A stretch of 64,000 bases of DNA from Alphaproteobacteria bacterium (GTDB lineage Bacteria; Pseudomonadota; Alphaproteobacteria; Rhizobiales; GCA-2746425). Shown in pieces: positions 2,885 through 36,070 of the stretch (position 1 is the stretch's first letter; the number at the start of each line of letters is the position of its first letter). The notes beneath the pieces were generated by a model. The model searched no databases. It was not told where the DNA came from and saw only the letters and a list, made by a program, of their open reading frames with translations. Location: positions 1-64,000 of the forward strand of contig JANSWZ010000013.1 in NCBI GenBank assembly GCA_024743215.1, written 5' to 3'. Position numbers and translations under genes: made by a program.

Positions 2885-4552
<1,668 letters not shown>

Positions 4553-7264: not shown

Positions 7265-8854
7265 TTAAACGCTCTGGCTCAACCAGGATTGGCGTTTTCG
7301 ATATATGGTGGACGGACTTATTTCCAACGCTGCAGCTGCGCGTGAAATATTGCCATCATAACGCGTGACGGCCGCTTCGATAATTGACTGTTCCTGTTGC
7401 CAGAACGGCAGACAATCATGCCCCTTGGAACGGCCTTCAAACGGGTCCTTCACACCTGCTTCTGCAATTGTGCTCTTTATGCCTGCATCCAAAGCTTCTG
7501 CAGCAACAGAGCTGGATCGCATGGAATCGGGCAACATATGTGCTTCAACAGCCTGACCATCATTCATGACAATCGTGTGGCGAACCACATTCTGCAATTC
7601 CCGTACATTTCCTGGCCAATGATAGTGCTTCAGACAGGCTTCTGATTGAGAGGAAAAAGTCGTGAACGCTCTTCCTTCCTCTCTGACATAGGATTCCAGA
7701 AACCGATTGGCCAATACGAGAACATCTTCTTTGCGCACGCGCAAAGGCGGAACAAAGATTGGCAAAACATGCAGGCGATAAAACAGATCTTCCCGAAACC
7801 GTCTGTCAGCGACAGCTTTGTAAGGATCACGATGGGTCGCGCAGATAATGCGGACATTCACTGAACGCATTTGAACATCGCCAATCCGGCGTACGGTTCC
7901 GGTTTGCAGGAAGCGCAACAATTTTGCCTGTAGCGCCATATCCATATCGCCGATTTCATCGAGGAATAGGGTTCCCCCGTCAGCCTGCTCGGCAGCACCT
8001 GGATGATCGGCAACAGCGCCCGTGAAGGCACCTTTGCAATGGCCGAACAGTTCGCTCTCCATCAAATCCTTTGGAATGGCGCTGCAATTCAGGGCCACAA
8101 AGGGTCTGTCCCCGCGTCCTGACCTGGCATGAAGGGCCTCGGCACACACATCCTTCCCGGTTCCGCTTTCGCCTGTGATGAAGACAGGTGCTGCAGAGGG
8201 AGCGACACGGTCAATTTGTTGATAGAGTTCCAGCATGGCGGCAGACCGCCCGCAAAACCCCTCAAAGGCCAATTCACTGGTCTTCTCGGTTTTCGCCGGC
8301 TTTGTGGCAGAAGAAGCCGGATGAATGCTCTCCAGCAGGGCGACTTTTTTCTGTTTCGCTTTCAAACGTCGCTTCAGATCTTTCTGATAGGAGGCAAGAG
8401 CCTCACCAATGCGTTTTTGCAGCGTTGATTTTCCAACCGGCTTGATGAGAAAATCCCAGGCACCTGCCCGCATCGCATCTATCGCCGATGAGAGCGCCCC
8501 AAGGCCAGAAAGGCTGATCAGCTTTGCATGCGGCGCAACCGAGGTGAGGGCTTCAACACCCTGAATGCCGCAAACGCTTTCCATATCTGCCAGAATTATT
8601 GCGGGGCCGGTGGCTGCAATCTGTTGATGGGCTTCCTCAAGATTACACACGACATCAAGGATGATGGTTTGATTTGCCGAGTTTTCAACTGAAATTGCCG
8701 TCAAGCTTTTGGCAGGATTTGCCGCCAAGCTTTTGGCTGGATTTGATTGTCTGGAAATGAAATCATTTATCAGCGTGCCAATGGCGCATTGCTGGGCCTC
8801 ATCCCCTTCAATGAGAAGGATCGAGTGGGATAATTCGTGCTCGGTATGCTGCAT
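7265..8854 (-). CDS. Sigma-54-dependent response regulator (NtrC family)
   Basis: Three-domain activator of RpoN-dependent promoters, 529 aa. Residues about 10-150 are a receiver domain with phospho-acceptor candidate Asp90 (IILADMES) and Lys138. Residues about 195-435 are the AAA+ domain: Walker A GESGTGKD at 228-235, the sigma-54 contact loop GAFTGA, and Walker B GTLFLDEIGD. The C-terminus is a Fis-type helix-turn-helix (NISRAAAALEISPSTIYRKR). The receiver is atypical, with GDE in the acidic pocket and an insertion built from an 8-residue tandem repeat (see 8702-8745). No histidine kinase is nearby. ATG 8854 was chosen over TTG 8911 from domain layout. It is divergent from the EAL protein. 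Confidence 0.93.
   Translation of the reverse strand: MQHTEHELSHSILLIEGDEAQQCAIGTLINDFISRQSNPAKSLAANPAKSLTAISVENSANQTIILDVVCNLEEAHQQIAATGPAIILADMESVCGIQGVEALTSVAPHAKLISLSGLGALSSAIDAMRAGAWDFLIKPVGKSTLQKRIGEALASYQKDLKRRLKAKQKKVALLESIHPASSATKPAKTEKTSELAFEGFCGRSAAMLELYQQIDRVAPSAAPVFITGESGTGKDVCAEALHARSGRGDRPFVALNCSAIPKDLMESELFGHCKGAFTGAVADHPGAAEQADGGTLFLDEIGDMDMALQAKLLRFLQTGTVRRIGDVQMRSVNVRIICATHRDPYKAVADRRFREDLFYRLHVLPIFVPPLRVRKEDVLVLANRFLESYVREEGRAFTTFSSQSEACLKHYHWPGNVRELQNVVRHTIVMNDGQAVEAHMLPDSMRSSSVAAEALDAGIKSTIAEAGVKDPFEGRSKGHDCLPFWQQEQSIIEAAVTRYDGNISRAAAALEISPSTIYRKRQSWLSQSV
8702..8745. repeat. 24-bp-period tandem duplication inside the receiver domain
   Basis: Two 20-bp units (8702-8721 and 8726-8745) differ at one base and are spaced 24 bp start to start. 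They encode NPAKSLAA and NPAKSLTA in the sigma-54 activator at residues 38-53. The period is a multiple of three, so the frame is kept. Confidence 0.85.
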
Positions 8855-9114
8855 CAAATATGTTCCAGGCCTGCGCTGAACTGATGGTCGCTGTCCGCAG
8901 TACTGGTGCAAGAGACCAGAGACGCTTGCAGTCCATCACTGCTGAAAGGTCGAAGCCCAATTTTCGTCTAACAGGGTAAATAAACCGTTTCCGATCGGCA
9001 ATTGGATTGGATTTTGGCCTGATTGTTTTCCAAACAGCAGCTTTCCTGCAAGATCACTTCGAAAATCTGGCACGCTCCACTTGGAAAAAATTCCGTTGTC
9101 ATTATTGTCGCTAT

Positions 9115-10422
9115 ATGGATCGAATCATCGCTACGCTCATATTCTGTTTTATGCTCGCAACCGCGATGGCTATTGCGGTTGGGGCGCGAACCATATTTGA
9201 TTTGCCGTTGCTCGCCAGCATTCTGATTGCCGGATTTCTACTGCTGATATTCACATTGACGCAGGGATTGGCAATGCAGCGCAAGCACCATATGCGGCTG
9301 GAATCAGAAATTGATAATCTTGCCGAAGAAGTAGCGACGGCTCGCAAGGGCTGGTCAGCCTGGAATTCACGTCTGCAAGTATGCGAGGAACGCGTTGATC
9401 TTCTGGCCGAGGATTTAGGGAAAGCGGAAGATTACGAGGCGCGTGCTGATATCGCCGAGTTGAGTGCCCTGATTAAAGACATTGTTGAGGCCATGGGTGA
9501 TGTGGATATTCGCTTGCAAAATCATGGCCGGCTCCTGACATCTTTGCCAAGCCAACGACCTGCTGAACCGCAAGTGGTGAAGCCGGCTGCAGATCCTGAC
9601 CAGTCTGCAGCCGATGCCATTGAAGATCGCAACGTTGACGCAACAAAACTGTCAGCGCTACGTCGTGCTTTGAACAGCAATGCTGTCACCTTCGAATATG
9701 AGCCGGTGGTTCGCATGCCACGTCGGCAAATCTGGTCCGGCTTTGCCAAGGTCAATGTTCAGGTTCCCGGAGAACGCGATCAGGCTGTGTTGCGAAAGAT
9801 TGCTGCCGAAAACGGGTTGCTGCCGTGTATTGATCTCTTGACCCTGTCCCAGGCGGGTAAGGGCTCCAGCATCAAGCTGGCTGATGGTCAGGCCGCGCCA
9901 GTTATCTGTCAGTTGAACCTGGAAAGTCTGCTGCCCAACCCATTTTCTGATGCTTTTGAGGAAGCTTTGGAAACACAGCGGGACAACGCACACAATATCA
10001 TTCTTGAGTTTCCTGACAGGGCGATAACCAGTCAACTGGCCGCCAATGCGCGGGACAGTGAAAGCACAGCCTTGCGCGCCAGGTTGCGCCGCTATGCGCG
10101 CTGGGGTTACAGCTATGCTCTGCACAAAAACGCCAGAGTTGGTCTGGCTGCCGATTATGGCATGCTTGCTGAACTCGGCTTCCGCTATGTTCGCATTTCT
10201 GCAAAGCCGCTCATTGCAGCGTTGGCCGCTATTGAGAAGGGCGAAAAAACGCCGTTTGATCTCCACCCAGCAGATTTGGCCGGGTTGACCGGCCGCTACG
10301 GTATGGAACTGATTGTTGGCGATCTGGAAGATGAAGCCATGGTGCTCGAAGCGTTGGAGCTCAACGCAGCATTCGCAATGGGCTACGCCTTTGAAGTCAG
10401 CCCCGCCAGGCGCGCTTCCTGA
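9115..10422 (+). CDS. Membrane protein with degenerate EAL domain
   Basis: This 435-aa protein has two N-terminal transmembrane helices (about residues 4-25 and 30-50), a coiled-coil-like segment (about 55-110), and a C-terminal EAL-type domain from about residue 195. The hallmark motif is gone: where active c-di-GMP phosphodiesterases have E-A-L it reads YEPVVRMPRRQIWSGFAKV, and the usual acidic metal ligands are not evident. It is therefore probably a catalytically dead EAL protein acting as a sensor or scaffold. The ATG at 9115 is preferred to a TTG at 9007 because it starts just before the first helix. The last 75 bp recur at 15568-15642. Confidence 0.8.
   Translation: MDRIIATLIFCFMLATAMAIAVGARTIFDLPLLASILIAGFLLLIFTLTQGLAMQRKHHMRLESEIDNLAEEVATARKGWSAWNSRLQVCEERVDLLAEDLGKAEDYEARADIAELSALIKDIVEAMGDVDIRLQNHGRLLTSLPSQRPAEPQVVKPAADPDQSAADAIEDRNVDATKLSALRRALNSNAVTFEYEPVVRMPRRQIWSGFAKVNVQVPGERDQAVLRKIAAENGLLPCIDLLTLSQAGKGSSIKLADGQAAPVICQLNLESLLPNPFSDAFEEALETQRDNAHNIILEFPDRAITSQLAANARDSESTALRARLRRYARWGYSYALHKNARVGLAADYGMLAELGFRYVRISAKPLIAALAAIEKGEKTPFDLHPADLAGLTGRYGMELIVGDLEDEAMVLEALELNAAFAMGYAFEVSPARRAS
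10348..10422 (+). repeat. 75-bp direct repeat, copy 1 (3' end of EAL gene)
   Basis: The last 75 bases of the EAL gene, stop codon included, are repeated at 15568-15642 with two mismatches, exactly 5220 bp away and in the same orientation. This copy completes the intact gene. Repeats of a gene's 3' end at both edges of a segment are typical of integration into that end. Confidence 0.95.
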
Positions 10423-10481
10423 AGAGGATAGTTTCTCGGCGTGAGGAATGGCTAATGCACAATTCTTGGACGCTGAATAAA

Positions 10482-11396
10482 TCAGTTTAACAGTGGCGTT
10501 TCGATTCCCGAAATGGTTTTGCAAATGCATTCTTCGGCAAGTGTCACAGACGTATCCAGCGTGCTATCCCTGCGACGGCCGAGGCGAAGTTCGTGGCTTT
10601 CCACATCGCGGCTGTGGATCGGAATATAGACCAATTGCCCATCCTTTAAGTCTTCTTCGACGTCGATGCGGCTGAGAAAGGTTATTGCTTCGCCAGACCG
10701 GGAAATTGACTTCAAAAGCTCAATTGAGTTGGAAAGAAAGGCAGGGCGCAGGGGATAGCCTGCGATTGTGAAGGCTTCGCCTATGAGATGGTTGATGGTA
10801 ATCGATTCATCCGCAAGAGCGATTGGCCAGTTTACGATTTCGGGCAGCCGCAGGCAGTTTCGCCCAACCAACGGATGGTCGCGACTGACCACAACACCAA
10901 GCCGGGTCGGAAACGTCATACTGGCAGAAATGCCGGTTCCATTTGGCCAGGAATAGGCGAGGCCAAGATCGCATTCTCCCGTTGCCAGATCATGCTCCAC
11001 ACCCGCTTCCGTCTGGCTGCGGACCGTGATTGCGATGCCGGGGTTTTCTGCACAGAAAACACGCAGGATCAGTGGAATAATTCCAGCCGCCAGTCCATGC
11101 ATGGCAGAAATTCTGACCCTTGGTCCGTCGGTGCCGCTCAACTCGCGCAGCCGCTGTTTCATTCGTTCATAGTCCCGAAGTGTTTGGCGGATGTGAGCGA
11201 TCACGACCTCTCCGGCAGCGGTGACGCGCATACCTCCAGAATGTCGGTGGAAAAGCGGGGTGCCAGTCTCTTCTTCCAGCTGAATAATCCGGCGGTTGAT
11301 CGAAGATGCCGAGACATTGAGAACGTCAGCCGCTGCGCGAATTGATCCGCGTCGGGACACCTCATCAATCTGATTCAACAGGCTGGAATGCAACAT
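10482..11396 (-). CDS. LysR-family transcriptional regulator of the TRAP operon
   Basis: This 304-aa protein has a winged helix-turn-helix at residues about 5-62 (IDEVSRRGSIRAAADVLNVS, then SINRRIIQLEEETGTPLF) and an effector-binding domain after it. It is divergent from dctQ, with 260 bp between the starts. That space contains two AT-rich dyads, one immediately upstream of this gene (11399-11420). By position it should control the TRAP transporter and cupin operon and itself. The ATG at 11396 gives the normal family start. Confidence 0.9.
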   Translation of the reverse strand: MLHSSLLNQIDEVSRRGSIRAAADVLNVSASSINRRIIQLEEETGTPLFHRHSGGMRVTAAGEVVIAHIRQTLRDYERMKQRLRELSGTDGPRVRISAMHGLAAGIIPLILRVFCAENPGIAITVRSQTEAGVEHDLATGECDLGLAYSWPNGTGISASMTFPTRLGVVVSRDHPLVGRNCLRLPEIVNWPIALADESITINHLIGEAFTIAGYPLRPAFLSNSIELLKSISRSGEAITFLSRIDVEEDLKDGQLVYIPIHSRDVESHELRLGRRRDSTLDTSVTLAEECICKTISGIETPLLN

Positions 11397-11398
11397 AG

Positions 11399-11420
11399 AA
11401 ATAAAATTTCCCTTTTATTT
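11399..11420. promoter_or_regulatory. Inverted repeat upstream of the LysR gene
   Basis: AAATAAAA, six bases, TTTTATTT: perfect 8-bp arms ending 2 bp from the LysR start codon, overlapping its ribosome-binding region. An 11-bp palindrome CTAAAATTTAG lies at 11437-11447. Autoregulation by the LysR protein is a plausible reading. Confidence 0.45.
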
Positions 11421-11656
11421 CAGTATTATATCAATTCTAAAATTTAGCGTACTCTTTTTAAGAACGCTGGTCACGCAAAAAGACGCTCGAACCGTAACCC
11501 AATTCAGACCACTGTTTTGTCAGAAAATATATCGAAGCAATCAATTGCAAGTGGTGTCCAGCCAACAGGTAAGGTCGGCCAGATTTTGGTAGCTCATCAG
11601 CCTGCGTGCTGAGGACCGCTGTACCCGTTTGTGACCATCGTCCCAGGAGATCAAAG

Positions 11657-12160
11657 TTGCGACAAAACGCAGGTCTTTTATCCGCTAAGCTGAACCGCCT
11701 GGTTGAGACAATCGTCGTCATCCTGATGGCGGCATTGGTATTGGACGTTTGGATCGGAGTGCTCGACAGATACTTTTTCAAATGGCAATTGAATTGGCCC
11801 GAGATATTGGCACGTTATCTGATGATCTGGGTCGCCTTGCTTGCAATATCCTGCGGTATTGCGCGACGCGAACACATTGGGCTGACAATCCTGACTGATC
11901 GCTTTTCGCCGACGTTTCGGCGATGCTCTCTCGTACTTTGTGATCTGCTTGCACTGGCTCTGTTTGTATGGGCTTTCGTCTATGGTGTGCAATTTGCCAT
12001 CAGCGGCGCCTCCCGCTTCGCAATGATCTTTGGCATGTCTATGGCACCCGCCTTTTCCGCTGTTCCGACAGCCGCAGCGCTCGCGGCGATTCAGCTTGCT
12101 TTGTGCCTGGTCCGTGACGCTGGGAAGTATCCTGTCAAAGAACAGGCGGCGGAGATTTAG
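11657..12160 (+). CDS. dctQ: TRAP transporter small permease subunit
   Basis: Four-helix inner-membrane subunit (167 aa) of a tripartite ATP-independent periplasmic transporter, which uses the sodium or proton gradient with DctM and DctP. Hydrophobic segments lie around residues 12-32, 45-68, 85-108 and 125-150. The family signature NWPEILARYLMIWVALLA is present. The start is TTG 11657, because AGGAGA lies six bases upstream; earlier in-frame starts (GTG 11606) have no such site. It is the first gene of the operon and ends two bases before dctM. Confidence 0.92.
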   Translation: MRQNAGLLSAKLNRLVETIVVILMAALVLDVWIGVLDRYFFKWQLNWPEILARYLMIWVALLAISCGIARREHIGLTILTDRFSPTFRRCSLVLCDLLALALFVWAFVYGVQFAISGASRFAMIFGMSMAPAFSAVPTAAALAAIQLALCLVRDAGKYPVKEQAAEI

Positions 12161-12162
12161 CC

Positions 12163-13443
12163 ATGGCAGTAGCATCTGTATTTTTCACTCTGCTTCTGCT
12201 TGGAATGCCGATTGCCTTTGCCATCGGACTTGCCGGCCTGGCAGGCTTGATTCAACTTGATAATCCCCGATTCATGCTGACAGGCGTTTCCAAGCTTTTT
12301 TCAGGAATGGATTCCTTTCCGTTTCTTGCAATGCCCTTCTTCATCTTGGCGGGCGAGATCATGAATCATATCGGCATCACAAAACAATTGATGCGTCTGG
12401 CGCACGTCCTGGTGGGGCACTTTCGTGGCGGGCTGGCGCAAGCCAATATGGTGGCTTCAGTGCTGTTTTCCGGTCTTACCGGTGCTGCAACGGCAGATGC
12501 AGCGGCATTTGGCAAGACACTAGTACCTGAGATGGTGCGTAACGGATATCGCAGAGATTATGCAGCGGCAGTCACGGCTGCTGGCTCAATCATCGGGCCT
12601 ACGATCCCTCCCTCTGGCTTGATGGTCGTTTATGGGTCTTTGATGGGGGTTTCAATCGGTGGCCTCTTCGCTGCTGGCATATTACCGGGCTTGATGATTT
12701 GCGCAGTGTGTATGGCCATCATTGCTATCGGCGCATCACGTAACAATCTACCTCAGGCGGATCGGCGGACAAGCCTGAAGCAGTTGGGTAAAGCGATATT
12801 GGACGCGACTTTTGCGCTCGTCATGCCGGTAATCATTCTGGGTGGCATTCTGGGAGGTATCGTTACGCCGACCGAAGCGGCTTCGCTCGCGGTGGCCTAC
12901 GCCGCGTTTGTTGGCGCTGTGATTTACCGCAATCTGTCGCTGCAGGCGCTCTATGCGATGTTGCTATCAACAGCCCGGACTACTGGCGTCATCTTCGCGA
13001 TCATCGCTTTCGCATCAATGCTGGGTTGGTGGCTGAGTTATGAGCGCATTCCGCAGGCAATTGCTGATGCGGTTCTGTCAGTCTCGGATAATCGCCTGAT
13101 CATCATCTTCCTGATTGTTCTCATTCTGCTGGTGATTGGCATGGTCATGGACATCACGGCAATTCTGATAATTTTAGCGCCCGTTCTCGTGCCACTGGCC
13201 AACGACATAGGTCTGGAGCCAATCCATTCCGGCATCATCTTCATTCTGGCTCTGAACATATCACTCATGACGCCGCCTGTGGGAGCCTGCCTTTTTGTAT
13301 TGTCTTCTGTGACGGGGGAGCGGCTTGAAGCTATTGCAGCCAAACTCTGGCCGTTTCTGATTGCAGAGGTTTTAGTACTTTTCATCTTTGCCTATTGGGA
13401 AAGTCTCGCATTGCTGATCCCTAGATTGCTTGGTTTCGTCTGA
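12163..13443 (+). CDS. dctM: TRAP transporter large permease subunit
   Basis: The 426-aa DctM subunit forms the transport channel, with about twelve membrane segments. Family landmarks are the N-terminal PIAFAIGLAGLAGL helix, SGLTGAATADAAAFGKTLVPEM, TIPPSGLMVVYG, and MDITAILIILAPVLVPLA near the C-terminus. Length is typical. It starts two bases after dctQ with a GGAG site in the dctQ end, so the two are translated as a coupled pair. Confidence 0.97.
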   Translation: MAVASVFFTLLLLGMPIAFAIGLAGLAGLIQLDNPRFMLTGVSKLFSGMDSFPFLAMPFFILAGEIMNHIGITKQLMRLAHVLVGHFRGGLAQANMVASVLFSGLTGAATADAAAFGKTLVPEMVRNGYRRDYAAAVTAAGSIIGPTIPPSGLMVVYGSLMGVSIGGLFAAGILPGLMICAVCMAIIAIGASRNNLPQADRRTSLKQLGKAILDATFALVMPVIILGGILGGIVTPTEAASLAVAYAAFVGAVIYRNLSLQALYAMLLSTARTTGVIFAIIAFASMLGWWLSYERIPQAIADAVLSVSDNRLIIIFLIVLILLVIGMVMDITAILIILAPVLVPLANDIGLEPIHSGIIFILALNISLMTPPVGACLFVLSSVTGERLEAIAAKLWPFLIAEVLVLFIFAYWESLALLIPRLLGFV

Positions 13444-13618
13444 TGAGCAGTCCGAGACCGAGACCAAACCGGGTGACGTGCTCATACCGGCCCTCTCTCC
13501 GAGCGACACGTGACCCTGAAACGAAGCCGAGACTTTCGGCACAACCCTCATATTCGATACGACGAAATACGCGTCGAAAATGAGGTCACACGATCAAACT
13601 CAACAGATAGGAAAAATA

Positions 13619-14659
13619 ATGAAGAAAGTTCTGATTGCGGCCACGGCCATTGCATTGATTACGACCCAGGTTTTTGCAGAGACCAAAGTCATTCGCTTCG
13701 CCCATGATTCCAATGCGGACATATACGACAACCCAAATCATGCCTGTGCTACCGTCTTTCAAGGCATAGTGAATTCGGGAAGTAATGGCGAACTTGCGGT
13801 CGAGATTTATCCCGGCGGCCAACTGGGCACCATCACCGAGGCCGTGCAAATGGTTCGTGACGGAGTGGTCGAGGTCACCAACGCTTCAACCGGAGCACTC
13901 GCGCCCTATTATCCTCGTATTGATGTTCTGAATCTGCCCTTTGCTTTTGCCAGCAATGGCTCAGCCGACACTGTCTTCAATGGTCCATTTGGCCATGCGC
14001 TGAAAAAGGATATCGAAGAAAACCTCAACGAAGTCGTGGTGCTGGGCTACCCTGACACCGGTGGCCTTTTTGTTATTTCGAATTCTAAACAGGAAATTGC
14101 AACACTGGATGATATGTCGGGTATTCGTCTGCGTACCATGACCTTGCCTTCTCATCAGGCGATCATGAATTCTCTTGGGATGGAAGCCTATCCACTGTCT
14201 TTTTCCGAAGTTTATTCGGGCTTGCAGACGGGTGTGATCGACGGTCAAATGAACCCGATTCCAATCATCGTGTCGGCAAATCTGGACGAGGTGCAAAAAT
14301 ACGTCACGCTGACAAATCACCTGTATTCACCTTTCACCATGCTATTCAATAAAGCGTTTTACGAGGGGCTGACTGACGCGCAAAAGGACCTGATCCACAC
14401 TGCAGCGCAGTCTTGCGAAAATGCAGCCCGTGGTATTTCGCGGATCATCGAGGCCTCAGAAAGAGGCTTGGCCAGCTTGGCCGGTGAATTGACGATCACC
14501 GCACTTTCCGCAGAGGATCGCCAACAGATGCGGGAAGTTACAGGTAACGCATTTGACGTTTATATTGCGGAAACGCACGGCGACGAAGCCAAAGCTCTGG
14601 TTGACCTCCTGAAGGTAGAAAGTGCCAAGGCGAACGTGGCCCGCTTCTTTGGCGAGTAA
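13619..14659 (+). CDS. dctP: TRAP transporter periplasmic solute-binding protein
   Basis: Periplasmic receptor (346 aa) that delivers the ligand to DctQM. It has a signal peptide MKKVLIAATAIALITTQVFA, then the DctP fold with landmarks VEIYPGGQLG, GIRLRTMTLPSHQAIMNSLG, and SFSEVYSGLQTGVIDGQMNP. The conserved arginine (GIRLRT) that usually binds a carboxylate is present, so an organic acid or similar anion is expected. The ATG at 13619 is preceded by AGGA; the frame extends upstream to 13580 without support. It follows dctM after 175 bp. Pairing with the cupin suggests a ureide-type substrate, which is inference. Confidence 0.95.
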   Translation: MKKVLIAATAIALITTQVFAETKVIRFAHDSNADIYDNPNHACATVFQGIVNSGSNGELAVEIYPGGQLGTITEAVQMVRDGVVEVTNASTGALAPYYPRIDVLNLPFAFASNGSADTVFNGPFGHALKKDIEENLNEVVVLGYPDTGGLFVISNSKQEIATLDDMSGIRLRTMTLPSHQAIMNSLGMEAYPLSFSEVYSGLQTGVIDGQMNPIPIIVSANLDEVQKYVTLTNHLYSPFTMLFNKAFYEGLTDAQKDLIHTAAQSCENAARGISRIIEASERGLASLAGELTITALSAEDRQQMREVTGNAFDVYIAETHGDEAKALVDLLKVESAKANVARFFGE

Positions 14660-14759
14660 GTTTCAAGAACTTGCTACGACATTTGTTCTGCCTGGCATGC
14701 CTGCAGTCAGGCGGAACTTCTCGCCCTCCCATGTCAACAGTCTGAGAAAGATTAACCGG

Positions 14760-15506
14760 ATGCTAGCGAATCTTGGCGAAACCAGATCAAAGGTCAAAGG
14801 TCTTCATGCATTGATTTGCCCGGACAGCCACGAAGTCATTGATCTGCCCCACTGGCCGGGGACCGATTTCGTGTCATTTGTAACGCCCGCTTTGGGCGCA
14901 ACGTTTTCGCTCAGTAAGATAACCGCTTTCAAGCAAACCCGAATTCTTCCGCCACCGCATAAGGGCACTCGCTTTTTTCTGGTGCAGAATGGGACGGCCC
15001 GCTTGAATGTTGATAACCAAAACAGCGAATTGTCTGACGGTCATTTCGCATTTCTGCCATCGGACTGCGACCATTCGATCGAGCTTGCCAAATCAACTGA
15101 ATTGCTTTGTCTCGAGCGACCTTACACACCGACGCAAAGCGCGGCAGCGCCAGGATTTTTCACCTCGTCGATGAAAGATATCGTGCGGACCAAACTGAAA
15201 GGTGATGACGGCCTGCATATCCAGAAGCTCCTTCCTTCCAATCCCGGTTTTGACATGGAAATCAATGTGATGGATTTCGCACCCGGCGCAACTTTACCCT
15301 ATGTGGAAACCCACTTCATGGAGCATGGTTTGATGATGCTGAGCGGCGGTGGAGTATACCGCTTGGAAGATGATTGGTACCCAGTGACAAGCGGAGACGT
15401 GATCTGGATGGGCCCGTTCTGCCCACAATGGTTTGGCGCCCTGGGGCGCGAAAATGCCCGATATCTCATTTACAAGAACTGGAATCGTGACCCGTTGGTC
15501 TGCTGA
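14760..15506 (+). CDS. (S)-ureidoglycine aminohydrolase-like bicupin
   Basis: A double-cupin protein (248 aa) resembling AllE/UGHY, which releases ammonia from (S)-ureidoglycine to give (S)-ureidoglycolate in allantoin breakdown. The C-terminal cupin carries all four manganese ligands known in the plant enzyme at the same spacing: Glu183, His185, His189 and Gln223 (YVETHFMEHG and CPQWFG). The ending YLIYKNWNRD also matches the family. The ATG at 14760 lines up with the E. coli protein start; 14697 is an alternative. It is the last gene of the TRAP operon. No other allantoin gene is in the window, so the substrate may be a related ureide. Confidence 0.82.
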   Translation: MLANLGETRSKVKGLHALICPDSHEVIDLPHWPGTDFVSFVTPALGATFSLSKITAFKQTRILPPPHKGTRFFLVQNGTARLNVDNQNSELSDGHFAFLPSDCDHSIELAKSTELLCLERPYTPTQSAAAPGFFTSSMKDIVRTKLKGDDGLHIQKLLPSNPGFDMEINVMDFAPGATLPYVETHFMEHGLMMLSGGGVYRLEDDWYPVTSGDVIWMGPFCPQWFGALGRENARYLIYKNWNRDPLVC

Positions 15507-15567
15507 TGGCAGGCTCCGGTAAGCCAACATAGGCATCAGCCTCGCTGACAAGGCGGCGGTGACGCCT

Positions 15568-15642
15568 GAAGCGTTGGAGCTCAACGCAGCATTCACAATG
15601 GGCTACGCCTTTGAAGTCAGCCCCGCCAGGCGCGCTTCGTGA
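15568..15642 (+). repeat. 75-bp direct repeat, copy 2 (orphan EAL 3' end)
   Basis: A second copy of the EAL gene's last 75 bases, including a stop codon, lying outside any gene. One mismatch changes GCA to ACA (Ala to Thr) and the other is a silent TCC/TCG serine change. Sequence similarity stops abruptly on both sides. It marks the right boundary of the putative island. Confidence 0.95.
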
Positions 15643-15674
15643 CAATCTTTCGAGTGAATGAAGGATTACCCCGT

Positions 15675-15707
15675 CGTGGACCCTCGGACTTGTTCGAAGG
15701 GTCCACG
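15675..15707. repeat. 10-bp-stem palindrome, REP-like or terminator
   Basis: CGTGGACCCT and AGGGTCCACG form a perfect 10-bp stem around a 13-nt loop, 23 bp downstream of the M16 gene stop. There is no T-run on either strand. Such GGACCC palindromes often occur as dispersed extragenic repeats in alphaproteobacteria. I found no second copy in this window. Confidence 0.55.
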
Positions 15708-15729
15708 AAGTCAGCAGTCATTAGGCAAA

Positions 15730-17079
15730 TCAGCCCTTAATCTCTTCAGAGACCTGAGTGACAAGCGGCTGCCCAACAACAACAGTAAGCAGTGGGCTTG
15801 AGAAGATACGCTTGGCAACACGCTTGGCATCTTCCAGTGAAACAGATTCAATCAACTCATTTCGCTGATTGATGTAGTCCGCATCTCTGCCTTGAATCTG
15901 CAAGCCAACCAATTGATTGGCAATCTTGTCAGACGTATCGAAGCGCAGTGCATAGGCGCCTTTCAGATATTCTTTCGCAGCACGCATTTCGGTCTTTGTC
16001 GGTCCGGTCTCTGCCATCCGTTTCAACTCGGCAACAATCACTTCGCGTGCCTTTTCCGCCCGGTCACTTCGCGAGCCGACGCCGACAAAGAAAAAGCCGC
16101 GTTCGTCAAAGCTGGAGAGATAGCTGAAGACCGAATAGGCAAGGCCACGCTTTTCCCGCACTTCTTTGTAGAGCCGGGATGTAAAACTGCCGCCGCCCAG
16201 AATGTGATTCACCACATAGGCCGTAATGAAATCGGGATCTTCGACCAAAATGCTGTTGCCACCCATCCGGATGGTGGTTTGCGGCTTGTCGAGCGGCACC
16301 AAAATTGTCTCTTCCATAATCGGGGCAGGGCCCACGATTTCCGACAATGCTTCACCTGCGGGCAGGGCGCCAAAGGTTGCATCGATAAAGGCGCTGGCAC
16401 TTTCAGCATCGATATCGCCCACAACGGCCAGCTTGAGTCCGTTTTGCTTGAAAATCTGACCGTGAAGCGCCCGCAAATCATCGGGTGTAATACGCCCAAT
16501 AGATTCAATAGTTCCCGAGCGGGGCGCGCCATAGGGATGCGCAGGGAAGGCCGTGGTAAACCATGTTTCAGATGCAATGCTGCGGGGATCCGTCAGATCA
16601 CCGCGCAAGCGGGACTGAATACGCGAGACCATTCGCTCTACTGGTTCCTTGTCAAATCTGGGTTGTGACATGGCTTTTCCCAGAAGTTCGAAGGCAATAT
16701 CCTTGTTGGAGGACAGCGTGCGCATGACGCCCGAGAATCGCTCTGCGCGCGAACTGAACGATAGACGAACCGCAGTTTCATCCAATGTCGCCTGAAAGGT
16801 CTGGCTATCCATATCCGCAGCCCCTTCATCCAGCGTCGCGGACAGGAGTTCTGCCAGCCCTTCCTTGCCGGAAGGATCCAGCACTGATCCCCCTGTCAAC
16901 GAGAAGCTGACAGTAATCAGTGGGACTGTGTTGTCAGAAACAAGCCAGTAATCCAGGCCGTTCGGGGTTGTAATTTCCTGAACATCGACTGCCATTGAGG
17001 GCCGGACAAGAAAACTGGCGGCCAGAAGTGTGAAGGCGCCGATCAGAAGCGTTTTAACGACGACGGGTCTTTTGAACAT
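15730..17079 (-). CDS. M16-family peptidase-like protein, non-catalytic partner
   Basis: This 449-aa protein has the two-domain M16 fold and an N-terminal signal peptide (VKTLLIGAFTLLAASFLV...SMA). The zinc-binding HxxEH is missing: the equivalent segment reads GLAELLSATLDEG. The C-terminal R/Y motif (SRLYKEVREKRGLAYSVF) that grips substrate is intact. This is the classic inactive partner of a heterodimeric periplasmic M16 protease. It lies 23 bp downstream of the catalytic subunit gene, so the two should be co-expressed and form the dimer. ATG 17079 was chosen over TTG 17091. Confidence 0.93.
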   Translation of the reverse strand: MFKRPVVVKTLLIGAFTLLAASFLVRPSMAVDVQEITTPNGLDYWLVSDNTVPLITVSFSLTGGSVLDPSGKEGLAELLSATLDEGAADMDSQTFQATLDETAVRLSFSSRAERFSGVMRTLSSNKDIAFELLGKAMSQPRFDKEPVERMVSRIQSRLRGDLTDPRSIASETWFTTAFPAHPYGAPRSGTIESIGRITPDDLRALHGQIFKQNGLKLAVVGDIDAESASAFIDATFGALPAGEALSEIVGPAPIMEETILVPLDKPQTTIRMGGNSILVEDPDFITAYVVNHILGGGSFTSRLYKEVREKRGLAYSVFSYLSSFDERGFFFVGVGSRSDRAEKAREVIVAELKRMAETGPTKTEMRAAKEYLKGAYALRFDTSDKIANQLVGLQIQGRDADYINQRNELIESVSLEDAKRVAKRIFSSPLLTVVVGQPLVTQVSEEIKG

Positions 17080-24380: not shown

Positions 24381-25061
24381 ATGGGATATGAGTGGGACTT
24401 CGCGATTGTCTTTCGCGACTTTGATCTGCTGCTGCTTGGTCTGGTCAACACCCTGAAAGTCACTGGTTTTGCGCTGCTCTTCGGGGTGCCGCTCGGACTG
24501 GTACTGGCTCTTGCCAGGCTTTATGGCGTTGCAATCATTCGAGTTCCTGTTGGATTTGTGATTGAGTTTTTGCGCTCCACACCGCCCATTGCTCAGCTGT
24601 TCTGGTTCTTTTTTGCCATGCCGCTGCTGTTGGACATAGAGATTGATCCATTCGAAGCGGCTGTCATTACATTTTCACTTCAGTCATCAGCGTTTTTCGC
24701 AGAAGTCTTTCGCGGGGGAATTGCTTCGATCGACAGCGGCCAATGGGAAGCGTCCAAGGCACTTGGCATGGAACGCAATGCCCAATTGCGCCGCATCATT
24801 CTGCCTCAGGCCATCAAGCGCATGGTACCGGCTTTCATGGAACGCGCCATTGAGGTCATGAAAACCACAACACTTGTCGGCACAATTTCCTATGCAGATC
24901 TGCTGTATGAGGCCAACTCAATTGCCGAAGAGACTTATCGATACCTCGAAGTTTTCACCGTCGCGGCAGGCATGTATTTCGTCGTGATTTTCATATGCTC
25001 CATGGGCGTACGCCACCTTGAGCATTACCTTGGCCGCACCGGCGAAATCACAACAGGATAG
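24381..25061 (+). CDS. Amino-acid ABC transporter permease (first)
   Basis: This 226-aa inner-membrane subunit has five hydrophobic segments. The HisM/GlnP-type coupling loop contacts the ATPase (GQWEASKALGMERNAQLRRI). A conserved ProArg-like start region is seen in EFLRSTPPIAQLFWFFF. It lies ten bases upstream of a second homologous permease; the two form the heterodimeric channel. Confidence 0.95.
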   Translation: MGYEWDFAIVFRDFDLLLLGLVNTLKVTGFALLFGVPLGLVLALARLYGVAIIRVPVGFVIEFLRSTPPIAQLFWFFFAMPLLLDIEIDPFEAAVITFSLQSSAFFAEVFRGGIASIDSGQWEASKALGMERNAQLRRIILPQAIKRMVPAFMERAIEVMKTTTLVGTISYADLLYEANSIAEETYRYLEVFTVAAGMYFVVIFICSMGVRHLEHYLGRTGEITTG

Positions 25062-25070
25062 GAGGGGCTG

Positions 25071-25736
25071 ATGGAGTATAATTGGGATTTTGGCGCGGTC
25101 TGGACCTACCGCGGCCTGTTGTGGACGGGCTTGCAGAACACAATCATTCTGGCTGTAGTGTGTCTCGTATTGGGCCTGTTTTTTGGCCTGTTTGTAGGCG
25201 CAGCACGTTACTCGACCAGACCTATCCTGAACTATCCGGCAACCGCTTTTGTAGAGCTGTTCCGTAACACGCCCGTGCTCATTCAGATCATGTGGTTCTT
25301 CTTTGCTTTTCCCATCATTTCGCCTTTTCAAGTCGATGCATTTACAGCCGCCACGCTTGGCCTTGTTCTCAACACCACAGCATTTTCATCGGAGATTTTT
25401 CGCGCGGGCATTCAGTCCATTGCGAAAGGGCAGTGGGAAGCGGCCAAGGCCCTTGGCATGACTTACATGCAGCAGATGAAACGTGTGATTTTGCCTCAGG
25501 CCATTCGGCGGATGGTACCAGCTTTCATGAACCGCGCCGTTGAACTGGTGAAAATGACCTCTCTGGCATCCGTGATTGCCTATGGCGAACTTATGCATCA
25601 GGCCAAATCAATCGCAGCGATCTCATTCAATCCCATAGAGATGTATACCGCCGTCGCGATTTTCTATTTCCTTCTCATATTTCCATTCGCAATTTTAGTG
25701 CGCCGTTTGGAAATCAAATTCCAGCCGGGGAGCTGA
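25071..25736 (+). CDS. Amino-acid ABC transporter permease (second)
   Basis: This 221-aa paralogue of the preceding permease has the same layout: [20 protein letters not shown], then the coupling loop [20 protein letters not shown]. An AGGAGG-like site (AGGAGGGGCTG) just after the first permease stop drives its ATG at 25071. Its end abuts the ATPase gene. Confidence 0.95.
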
Positions 25737-25740
25737 TGAC

Positions 25741-26526
25741 TTGACCAACGTTCTTGAAATCAAAAAACTGTCCAAGTCATTTGGCGATCTCAAGGTACTG
25801 GATGCCATTGATCTGACAGTGTCAAAGGGCAGCACCGTGGTCATCATTGGCGCGTCGGGTTCTGGTAAATCCACATTGCTTCGCTGTGTCAATTTCATGG
25901 AAATTCCAAGTGCCGGCCAAATTGTCCTGCAGGGCGATCTGATCGGCAGCGGAACCGGCGAATCCATGAGTTACAGTGATTCCGAACTGGCCAAAATGCG
26001 TGCGCGTGTGGGTATGGTATTTCAGCATTTCAATCTGTTTCCTCATATGACGGTTAAACAGAACGTCATGGAAGGGCCTCGCACGGTTCTGAAATGTAAT
26101 ACGGCAGAATGCGAGCGCCGTGCTGACAGATATCTTGAGAAAGTTGGTCTTGGCTGGAAAGCGGATGCCTATCCTTCCCATCTATCCGGCGGCCAGCAGC
26201 AACGTGTAGCCATTGCACGCGCTCTGGCCATGGAGCCGGAAGTCATGCTGTTTGACGAAGCAACGTCAGCCCTCGATCCGGAACTGGTAGGCGAGGTTTT
26301 GCAAACCATGAAAGAATTGGCGGATGATGGCATGACGATGCTGATTGTGACCCACGAGCTTGGCTTCGCCTATACGGTGGCCGACAGGGTTCTGTTTCTG
26401 TCCGAAGGAAAAATTCTGGAGCAGGGCGACCCAGAGGCCGTGTTGATCAACCCCAAGCAGGAAGCAACCAAGAATTTCCTGCGAGGCCATGGCTCGTTCC
26501 GTTTACCTGAACCAAACCTTGATTGA
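25741..26526 (+). CDS. Amino-acid ABC transporter ATP-binding protein
   Basis: This 261-aa ATPase is of the GlnQ/HisP type, with Walker [10 protein letters not shown], signature [15 protein letters not shown], Walker [13 protein letters not shown] and switch histidine in IVTHELGF. It powers import through the two permeases. The start is TTG 25741 with GGGGAG eight bases upstream; an ATG at 25736 is followed at once by a stop in its frame. It ends just before the FAD oxidase gene. Confidence 0.96.
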
Positions 26527-26534
26527 ACAACACT

Positions 26535-27773
26535 ATGAAGCCTGTAATCGTCATTGGCGGAGGCATCGTTGGCATATCAACCGCCATCTGGCTGCAACGT
26601 GCTGGCAAGAGTGTTACGCTGATTGATCGTGGCAATGCAGAAGCTCAAGCCAGCTATGGCAATGCGGGCGTGCTTGCTTCCTCGTCCGTCATTCCGGTCA
26701 CGACACCCGGCATTGCGCTCAAAATTCCGAAAATGCTGCTCGACCCGAAAGAGCCGCTTTTCGTAAAATTGTCCTATTTGCCAAGGCTCGCTCCTTGGGC
26801 CCTTCGTTATGTGTCGCATAGTAAAGCCAGCGAAGTGCGCAGAATTGCAGCCGCCCTTCGCCATATCATTGGCGACAGTCTTGAGGATCATTTGGCGTTG
26901 GCTGGGGGCACAAGTGCCGCAAAACGGATTATTCCGACTGATTTTACGTTTATGTATGAAAGTCAGAGTGCTTTTGAAAAAGACGGATTTGGCTGGTCTG
27001 TCAAAAAGGAACTCGGTTTTGAATGGGACAGTTTGAGTGAAGCTGAACGCAAAGCCTATGATCCTGTTTTTGCGCCAGACCTCACATTTGCCGCCCGCCT
27101 TGGCAATCACGGCCGTATCAATGATCCGAGCGCCTATGTGGCTGATCTGACATCCCATTTCTCTGCGCAGGGCGGCACAGTGCTAAAGGGCGAAGTCGAG
27201 GATTTTATTCTGGAAAACGGTCAGATCACCGGTGTTCGGGTTGGTGGTGTCCCGTTGGAAGCATCAGCGGTCGCCGTCACGGCCGGTGCCTGGTCGACCC
27301 GGTTGACCAGCAAGCTTGGCATCAAAATTCCTCTGGAAGCTGAAAGCGGATACCATCTGGAGTTTTGGGAACCGAACAAAATGCCGCGCTCGCCATCGCT
27401 CATTCCCAGCGGAAAATTTATTGCGACCCCAATGGAGGGACGACTGCGCGTTGCAGGCATGGTGGAGTTTGGCGGTCTTGAAAATCAGGCATCGCAGGCA
27501 CCATTCGATCTGCTGCGCAAGAATGCCATAAAGGCCATTCCGGGCTTGACCTGGAAAGAAGAAACGCAATGGATGGGTCACAGACCTGCACCGACGGACT
27601 CGGTGCCGATTATTGATCAGGTTCCCGGCGCACCCGGTGTGTTTATGGGGTTTGGGCATCAGCATGTCGGCCTGACCGGTGGCGCAAGAACCGGTCAGCT
27701 TCTGTCTCAGCTCATATCAAATCAAAAACCCAATATCGACATGGCGCCATACGCCTGTGATCGGTTCGCTTGA
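26535..27773 (+). CDS. FAD-dependent amino-acid oxidoreductase (DadA-like)
   Basis: This 412-aa DAO-family flavoenzyme has the N-terminal dinucleotide-binding motif VIGGGIVGISTAIWLQ and a C-terminal FAD segment around GFGHQHVGLTGGARTG. D-amino-acid dehydrogenases of this type oxidise an amino or imino acid to a 2-oxo acid, passing electrons to the respiratory chain. The gene begins eight bases after the ATPase stop (ATG 26535; TTG 26523 is an overlapping alternative). It is the last gene of the MocR-linked import and catabolic operon, so it probably acts on the imported compound or its product. Confidence 0.92.
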   Translation: MKPVIVIGGGIVGISTAIWLQRAGKSVTLIDRGNAEAQASYGNAGVLASSSVIPVTTPGIALKIPKMLLDPKEPLFVKLSYLPRLAPWALRYVSHSKASEVRRIAAALRHIIGDSLEDHLALAGGTSAAKRIIPTDFTFMYESQSAFEKDGFGWSVKKELGFEWDSLSEAERKAYDPVFAPDLTFAARLGNHGRINDPSAYVADLTSHFSAQGGTVLKGEVEDFILENGQITGVRVGGVPLEASAVAVTAGAWSTRLTSKLGIKIPLEAESGYHLEFWEPNKMPRSPSLIPSGKFIATPMEGRLRVAGMVEFGGLENQASQAPFDLLRKNAIKAIPGLTWKEETQWMGHRPAPTDSVPIIDQVPGAPGVFMGFGHQHVGLTGGARTGQLLSQLISNQKPNIDMAPYACDRFA

Positions 27774-35377: not shown

Positions 35378-36070
35378 TCTTATCCTCCCAAAAGGCAAAG
35401 GTCTTCCGTGTCCGAAAGCGACGAGCGCTCGCAGATTTCAGCTTTTTGCTGGCGTTAAAGAACCCCTGTTCAAGCACGATTGACTGGCAATCGAACCTGA
35501 TACCTCCACCTTCGATTCCTATACGTTACCGGTAACTTTCGTCAAGTGTTATCGATAACTTTTTCTGATTTATCCAATGATCCGGCACTTCTTAAACCTG
35601 AATCATAACGCCAGAAAAGCCGTGTAAACGCCTGATTTGACTCTTTAATAGGCCATCTGGAAGTGCATTAGATTCCGTTTGGATGGTCTTGCAGCCAGCA
35701 TTCTTACGACCACTGAATGGGCGCATAGCACGCAGCACCCTGCCCAATTGATGGTGGTTAAAGATGGCCTTGTGAACTCAGATCGAAGGGGCTTGGAAGC
35801 ATGACATGCGCAAAAATGACGTGTTTGGCAGCAAAAGCTTTATTCTGCCGCCAAGCGCTGTTAAAAGCCCCAACAGATAGACAACCGGCTTTGGTATCGA
35901 TGATACATTTATCAAGACGAACCATACGAATTACTGGCCCGGCCTCCCTTTGAGGCGCGGGCAGGTTTGCGCGCGGGGAGCCGGGTTCCACACACAACTG
36001 CAGCATAGAGCAAAGACAGGTCCCAGGGCCCTTTGTGCTCTTATACTTTCTCCTGACTTTAGAGTTGATA
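35378..36070. other. Regulatory gap between the sugar operon and ileS
   Basis: No credible coding sequence lies in these 693 bases. The part next to the sugar operon carries two operators (35525-35559). A GC-rich hairpin lies at 35937-35962: stem GCCCG plus GCCTC paired with GAGGC and CGGGC, one bulged G, loop CCTTT. It has no T-run. A TATACT at 36042-36047 is a candidate -10 box for ileS, without a clear -35. Confidence 0.5.
35525..35559. promoter_or_regulatory. Two LacI-family operator palindromes
   Basis: GTTACCGGTAAC (35525-35536) and GTTATCGATAAC (35548-35559) are perfect 12-bp palindromes with a central CG, spaced 23 bp centre to centre. This is the form of LacI-family sites in sugar operons. 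They sit upstream of the ATPase gene. The regulator is not in the window. Confidence 0.8.

Follow-up and report, generated by a model that had tools for sequence, protein, structure and literature searches.

A 5220-bp segment of the window, the whole 64,000-nucleotide stretch of DNA analysed here, is an insertion in this lineage, since the segment is missing at the corresponding site in all four same-genus genomes (G001-G004). It lies at the 3' end of a flagella-type signalling gene encoding an EAL-domain protein, carries five genes and is bounded by two direct copies of the last 75 bp of the EAL gene. The chances appear about even that it is an integrase-type island at a gene 3' end, solitary and CIME-like, whose integrase has been lost or acted in trans. 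The features of the region are the following (window coordinates, with strand for genes and repeat copies):

9007..10422, + strand: EAL-domain gene (TipF-like), the insertion target; Pfam EAL, 41.7 bits against a cut-off of 31.3
10348..10422, + strand: left copy of the 75-bp repeat, contiguous with the native upstream flank; G002 base at both mismatch sites
10351..10367: perfect inverted repeat (6-bp arms, 5-bp spacer), lying 3 bp in from the left end of the 75-bp repeat; a weak candidate for a recombinase core
10423..10481: left insert margin, 59 bp; a query of 10423-10490 finds in the five genus genomes itself and one match of 19-20 bases (E 0.58)
10482..11396, - strand: LysR-family regulator (PF00126, PF03466)
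11606..12160, + strand: TRAP small permease DctQ (PF04290)
12163..13443, + strand: TRAP large permease DctM (TIGR00786, 400 bits)
13619..14659, + strand: TRAP solute-binding protein DctP (TIGR00787)
14697..15506, + strand: putative (S)-ureidoglycine aminohydrolase-like cupin (TIGR03214, 259.3 bits against a cut-off of 200)
15507..15567: right insert margin, 61 bp; for a query of 15506-15567 the other matches in the five genus genomes are short (best E 0.034)
15568..15642, + strand: right copy of the 75-bp repeat, running on into the native right flank; differs from the left copy and from G002 at positions 28 and 72
15643..15729: native spacer 3' of the EAL gene, 87 bp, with an inverted repeat at 15674-15706 that is also present in G002

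Target gene and empty site in the genus

The target gene scores 87 bits against the NCBIfam TipF model, below the model cut-off of 600, and an orthologue is present in 4/4 same-genus genomes, with identities of 95% (G002), 88%, 78% and 53%. The four 20-kb genus-mate loci show neither a match to a cargo protein nor an insert DNA match longer than 25 bases. The original prediction expected the EAL gene of relatives without the segment to run straight into the right flank, and this is the arrangement of G001, G002 and G003 (3/4), but not of G004, which has a different stretch of about 2 kb at this point. G002, the closest relative, contains exactly one 75-bp copy (L039:10203-10277) with both flanks contiguous: its alignment breaks at window position 10422 (L039:10277) and restarts at 15568 (L039:10203). 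In G001 and G003 the left alignment reaches 10422-10423 and the right one restarts at 15727-15729, about 60 bp further in those genomes. G004 also has the EAL and peptidase genes side by side, and their spacer of about 2.1 kb (L042:7055-9174) contains a gene encoding a methyltransferase of 214 aa (Methyltransf_31, 97.9 bits), for which the other four genomes offer no match above 36% identity. The best direct repeat of this spacer (51 bp, 74.5%) lies on either side of the methyltransferase gene (L042:7363-7413 and 8274-8324), away from the EAL end, and the G004 spacer shows no repeat like the 75-bp pair.

Because G004 has a different gene at the same spot, the spacer seems to tolerate foreign genes, and two genus members have acquired different genes there, by what look like dissimilar routes; the lack of a comparable repeat makes the same integrase unlikely for the G004 stretch. 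An RNA gene as the insertion target was discarded, since the window contains no tRNA and positions 10000-16000 show no Rfam match.

The 75-bp direct repeat

In the self-BLAST of the window, 10348-10422 and 15568-15642 match over 75 bp with 73/75 identical positions (97.3%, E 1.7e-29) and a spacing of 5220 bp, which agrees with the original reading that the last 75 bp of the EAL gene, stop codon included, recur 5220 bp away with two mismatches. The block coincides exactly, in frame, with the final 24 codons and the stop codon of the EAL ORF (9007-10422). When the 91 bp around the left copy were compared with the whole 5.09-Mb genome, 13 matches were found: the two known places and 11 others of 14-25 bases each, with E values of 0.75 or more. 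A survey of direct repeats (minimum 35 bp and 88% identity, 0.2-40 kb apart) covered 400 kb of contig C12 and the whole 108-kb contig that holds the window (C18), and gave two pairs only, the EAL pair and a pair spaced 274 bp apart at the contig start. No repeat of the EAL kind was found at the five other indel boundary pairs tested between this genome (G000) and G002. The idea that such repeats are a general habit of the genome was therefore dropped, as none comparable was found at these five pairs or in the 400 kb of C12.

In the whole genome, the 6-5-6 palindrome near the left end of the repeat is present at the two repeat copies only. Among 20,000 random 75-bp stretches of the window, 11% contain such a palindrome anywhere and 1.2% contain one whose left arm starts within 5 bp of the left edge, figures that belong to a motif noticed before it was tested. 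Few chance sites would be expected in the genome in any case, so that the palindrome is a weak argument.

Several other features of the contig were recorded. The pair at the contig start (1-75 and 275-349; a 75-bp direct repeat, 90.7% identical, 274 bp apart) shows no Rfam match, and it may be shared with G002, in which the alignments overlap similarly. Two directly oriented stretches, 24688-24925 and 25378-25615, share about 70% identity and are probably paralogous genes; G002 has a comparable pair. A perfect 28-bp palindrome at 2834-2861, just downstream of a groEL-like ORF (2885-4534, - strand), is possibly a terminator. Past the window end, 9.5 kb of C18 (64718-74185, L108) containing two-component-like and other ORFs are not aligned to G002 there, opposite about 0.9 kb, and show no long repeats at their edges.

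Age and direction of the duplication

The left copy and G002 have different bases at 7/75 positions, and at 7/7 of these the right copy has the state of the left one, so the duplication is younger than the split from G002 or has been homogenised since. At the two mismatches between the copies, positions 28 and 72, the left copy has the G002 base; the right copy, which has ceased to form the end of the gene, shows two changes, one of them an amino acid replacement (A to T). In the EAL gene as a whole, 59/221 fourfold sites differ between this species and G002, and the comparison with 2/75 between the copies suggests, with a wide error, that the insertion is fairly recent. The right copy had been taken to be the displaced original; its continuation into the native downstream flank is in favour of this, but the G002 bases of the left copy fit either direction.

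Cargo genes

Between the copies the original prediction placed a complete LysR-dctQ-dctM-dctP-cupin unit, and the five cargo ORFs are indeed all intact, each with a family match. The start of the cupin gene was set at the in-frame ATG at 14697, in a frame open from 14622, and the relatives of its product with a solved structure are 1sfn and 4e2q. The cargo shows a GC content of 0.51-0.54 and a GC3 of 0.55-0.59, and the six neighbouring host genes show 0.51-0.53 and 0.51-0.57, respectively; the foreignness of the cargo is marked by its absence from relatives, not by its composition. The cargo is new to the genus: among the matches listed for DctP in the four genus-mates, the maximum identity is 32%. 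A 14-bp similarity between 11214 and 15552 was taken as chance.

Further afield, relatives of the cupin reach at most 57% identity (31 loci) and those of DctP at most 60%, and the best DctM relative found is 78% identical and belongs to another family of the order. The whole LysR-dctQMP-cupin set is present in none of 39 loci (tblastn, E 1e-15, identity >30% shown), many of them too short for these loci to count as a survey of gene order, and in none of five loci obtained at E 1e-5. None of the 41 matching plasmid records covers 80% of the insert. Each of the five genus genomes contains another such cupin beside a ureidoglycolate lyase, 30-36% identical to that of the island, which therefore brings a second, different one. 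The island may be predicted to serve the uptake and probably the breakdown of a small molecule. The "ureide" label given to the cargo is a candidate function that is partly supported, because the cupin passes the TIGR03214 cut-off, yet on two annotated Roseobacteraceae plasmids the neighbours of the TRAP relatives are an M81 peptidase and a MurR/RpiR regulator, followed a few genes on by RidA.

Recombinase, attachment sites and mobility genes

In line with the original prediction that no integrase remains, the five cargo proteins and six tested alternative-frame ORFs of the segment show no recombinase match (Pfam), and the 108-kb contig shows no match to a tyrosine recombinase (PF00589). PF00589 has six matches in the genome, on contigs C4, C5, C6, C9 (two) and C17, and among the matches listed for 33 relatives no such gene shares a contig with the EAL homologue at a distance of 200 kb or less. 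A transposon with target-site duplication was rejected, since the same tested proteins show no transposase match and the insert has four listed inverted-repeat pairs, none of which joins its ends. No attP was found in the own genome, phage records or viral contigs, and the 75-bp repeat has no match in phage records. Two exact patterns were run against the viral contigs: one gave nothing and the other a single hit (L152) of 20 matching bases, which was discarded as an attP because it is at about the chance level estimated for so large a collection. In these three collections the 75-bp sequence was found at the edges of no other cargo, the kind of case that the original reading had proposed to look for.

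Mode of insertion

In the reading that we prefer, a 5220-bp horizontally acquired island containing a LysR regulator, a TRAP importer and a cupin enzyme would have arrived as a circle, and a short EAL-3'-end sequence on this circle (attP-like) would have undergone reciprocal recombination with the chromosomal EAL 3' end (attB-like). The upstream part of the EAL gene would have been joined to the incoming end, keeping its codons and stop, and the original EAL end would have been displaced to the right edge of the island. The likeliest agent would be a tyrosine integrase, since lost by the element or supplied in trans, and what remains would be a solitary CIME-like island. We infer the circle, the integrase and its loss. 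Since both copies share 7/7 states, this reading requires that the EAL copy of the circle stem from this lineage or one very close to it.

Integration of the att type is favoured by an in-frame gene-end duplication that stops at the stop codon, a behaviour typical of att sites that restore their gene, and by the single-copy site in G002; the original claim of integration into a gene 3' end holds as far as this repeat and this site go, and is conditional as regards the recombinase. The integrase reading is further favoured by the cargo-free site in 4/4 genomes, with the continuity from EAL gene to flank also in G001 and G003, by the lack of such a repeat at the five other indel boundary pairs, by the different gene of G004 at the same spot, by a tRNA-Thr repeat with a PF00589 gene in the same genome, as a comparison, and by published elements at protein-coding 3' ends and CIMEs without recombination genes (both described below); the 6-5-6 palindrome adds weakly to these. 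It is disfavoured by the lack of a tyrosine-recombinase match in segment and contig and, among the listed matches for the 33 relatives, near the EAL homologue, by the lack of an attP, by the margins of 59 and 61 bp, which are short for arm-type sites, by the lack of any other use of the repeat and by the G004 insert without a repeat.

Some of these points are accounted for by a single crossover of RecA type, in which a non-replicating circle with about 75 bp of the EAL 3' end of this lineage is integrated through ordinary homologous recombination with no dedicated recombinase. This would yield the same anatomy, would explain the missing integrase and the missing att arms and agrees with the 7/7 lineage states common to the copies; however, it requires a source for a circle that joins foreign cargo to the exact gene end, and a stretch of 75 bp is short for homologous recombination to work efficiently, so that we consider it unlikely. 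The 7/7 shared states, which make both copies own-lineage sequence, and the G002 base of the left copy at both mismatches also agree with a staggered break of about 75 nt whose filling-in coincided with the capture of a linear piece of foreign DNA and produced a long target-site duplication. Such a repair needs no integrase, and the G004 spacer insert without a long repeat implies that other routes into the spacer exist. End joining is weakened by the lack of a Ku match in the genome, and the repeat stops exactly at the stop codon though 87 bp of native spacer follow, with margins of about 60 bp on either side of complete genes, which makes this origin rather improbable.

Homology-facilitated illegitimate recombination has been reported for competent bacteria and for E. 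coli conjugation (PMC3240628), and by such a route the EAL-linked cargo of a close relative could have recombined on the EAL side and been joined illegitimately on the other, with duplication of the 75 bp. Nevertheless, 0/4 genus-mates have the cargo beside the EAL gene and the proposal merely shifts the first insertion to another strain; its chances seem slim. There is likewise only a small chance that a cassette free of mobility genes was moved in trans to an attachment site at the EAL 3' end, or inserted by a process duplicating about 75 bp of target with no known recombinase; the literature search found no report of the 3' end of a flagellar-type EAL gene as an attachment site.

For Haloquadratum, deletion between repeats with a single copy left behind has been proposed (PMC3119063), and the relatives could in this way have lost an old segment that lay between two old copies, but separate losses across the genus would be required and the agreement at 7/7 G002-differing positions makes the copies younger than the split unless homogenised, so that ancestral presence is very improbable. 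An assembly artefact or chimera, conceivable in a draft genome of 19 contigs, is hardly credible given that the repeat is presumably shorter than ordinary reads, two mismatches separate the copies, a relative with a single-contig genome is collinear across the flanks and the GC and GC3 of the cargo are close to those of neighbouring genes.

Comparison with known elements

The same genome contains, on contig C5, a 67-bp repeat overlapping a tRNA-Thr gene (25299-25365 and 35409-35474, 92.5% identical, 10110 bp apart) with a PF00589 gene (26138-26626) between the copies. Both this region, as read in the own genome only, and the EAL island show a repeat of a gene end bounding a segment, there of about 10 kb, but the tRNA-Thr region has a tyrosine-recombinase gene and a tRNA target and the EAL island has neither.

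Phage 21/e14 reportedly integrates in the icd 3' end. Among thaumarchaeal elements, 14/68 use 3' regions of protein-coding genes, according to a passage of PMC6563490, and the elements of S. salivarius use the 3' ends at rpsI, fda and rpmG, according to one of PMC7563491. The island resembles the thaumarchaeal iMGEs, as that part of PMC6563490 presents them, and phage 21/e14 in its gene-end target, the stop codon re-supplied by the insert and the empty site in relatives; unlike them, since they typically carry an integrase, none was found in it. Compared with an integrase-type genomic island, it has the one-copy empty site, and no integrase gene was found within it.

By the definition in the relevant passages of PMC5704250 and PMC7563491, a CIME is a decayed ICE or IME with attL and attR retained, and the second paper describes CIMEs with cargo and without recombination genes, of 1.2-13 kb, as common; single (solitary) ones are, in the same passage, beyond the reach of its identification method. 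With the CIMEs of these two sources, as far as those passages go, the island shares a few kb of cargo flanked by direct repeats at a gene 3' end, the lack of recombination or transfer genes in the segment and a metabolic cargo. It differs from them in that no parent element or integrase is known for it and in its target, a TipF-like EAL gene. The island is CIME-like and not a proven CIME, its repeats being putative att sites and no parent ICE or IME having been found.

The island is thus ordinary in kind and tidy as an example: it is a clean case of a solitary, integrase-less island at the end of a protein-coding gene, the single-copy site of G002 fixes both its boundaries, and the two repeat copies permit a test of continuing excision.
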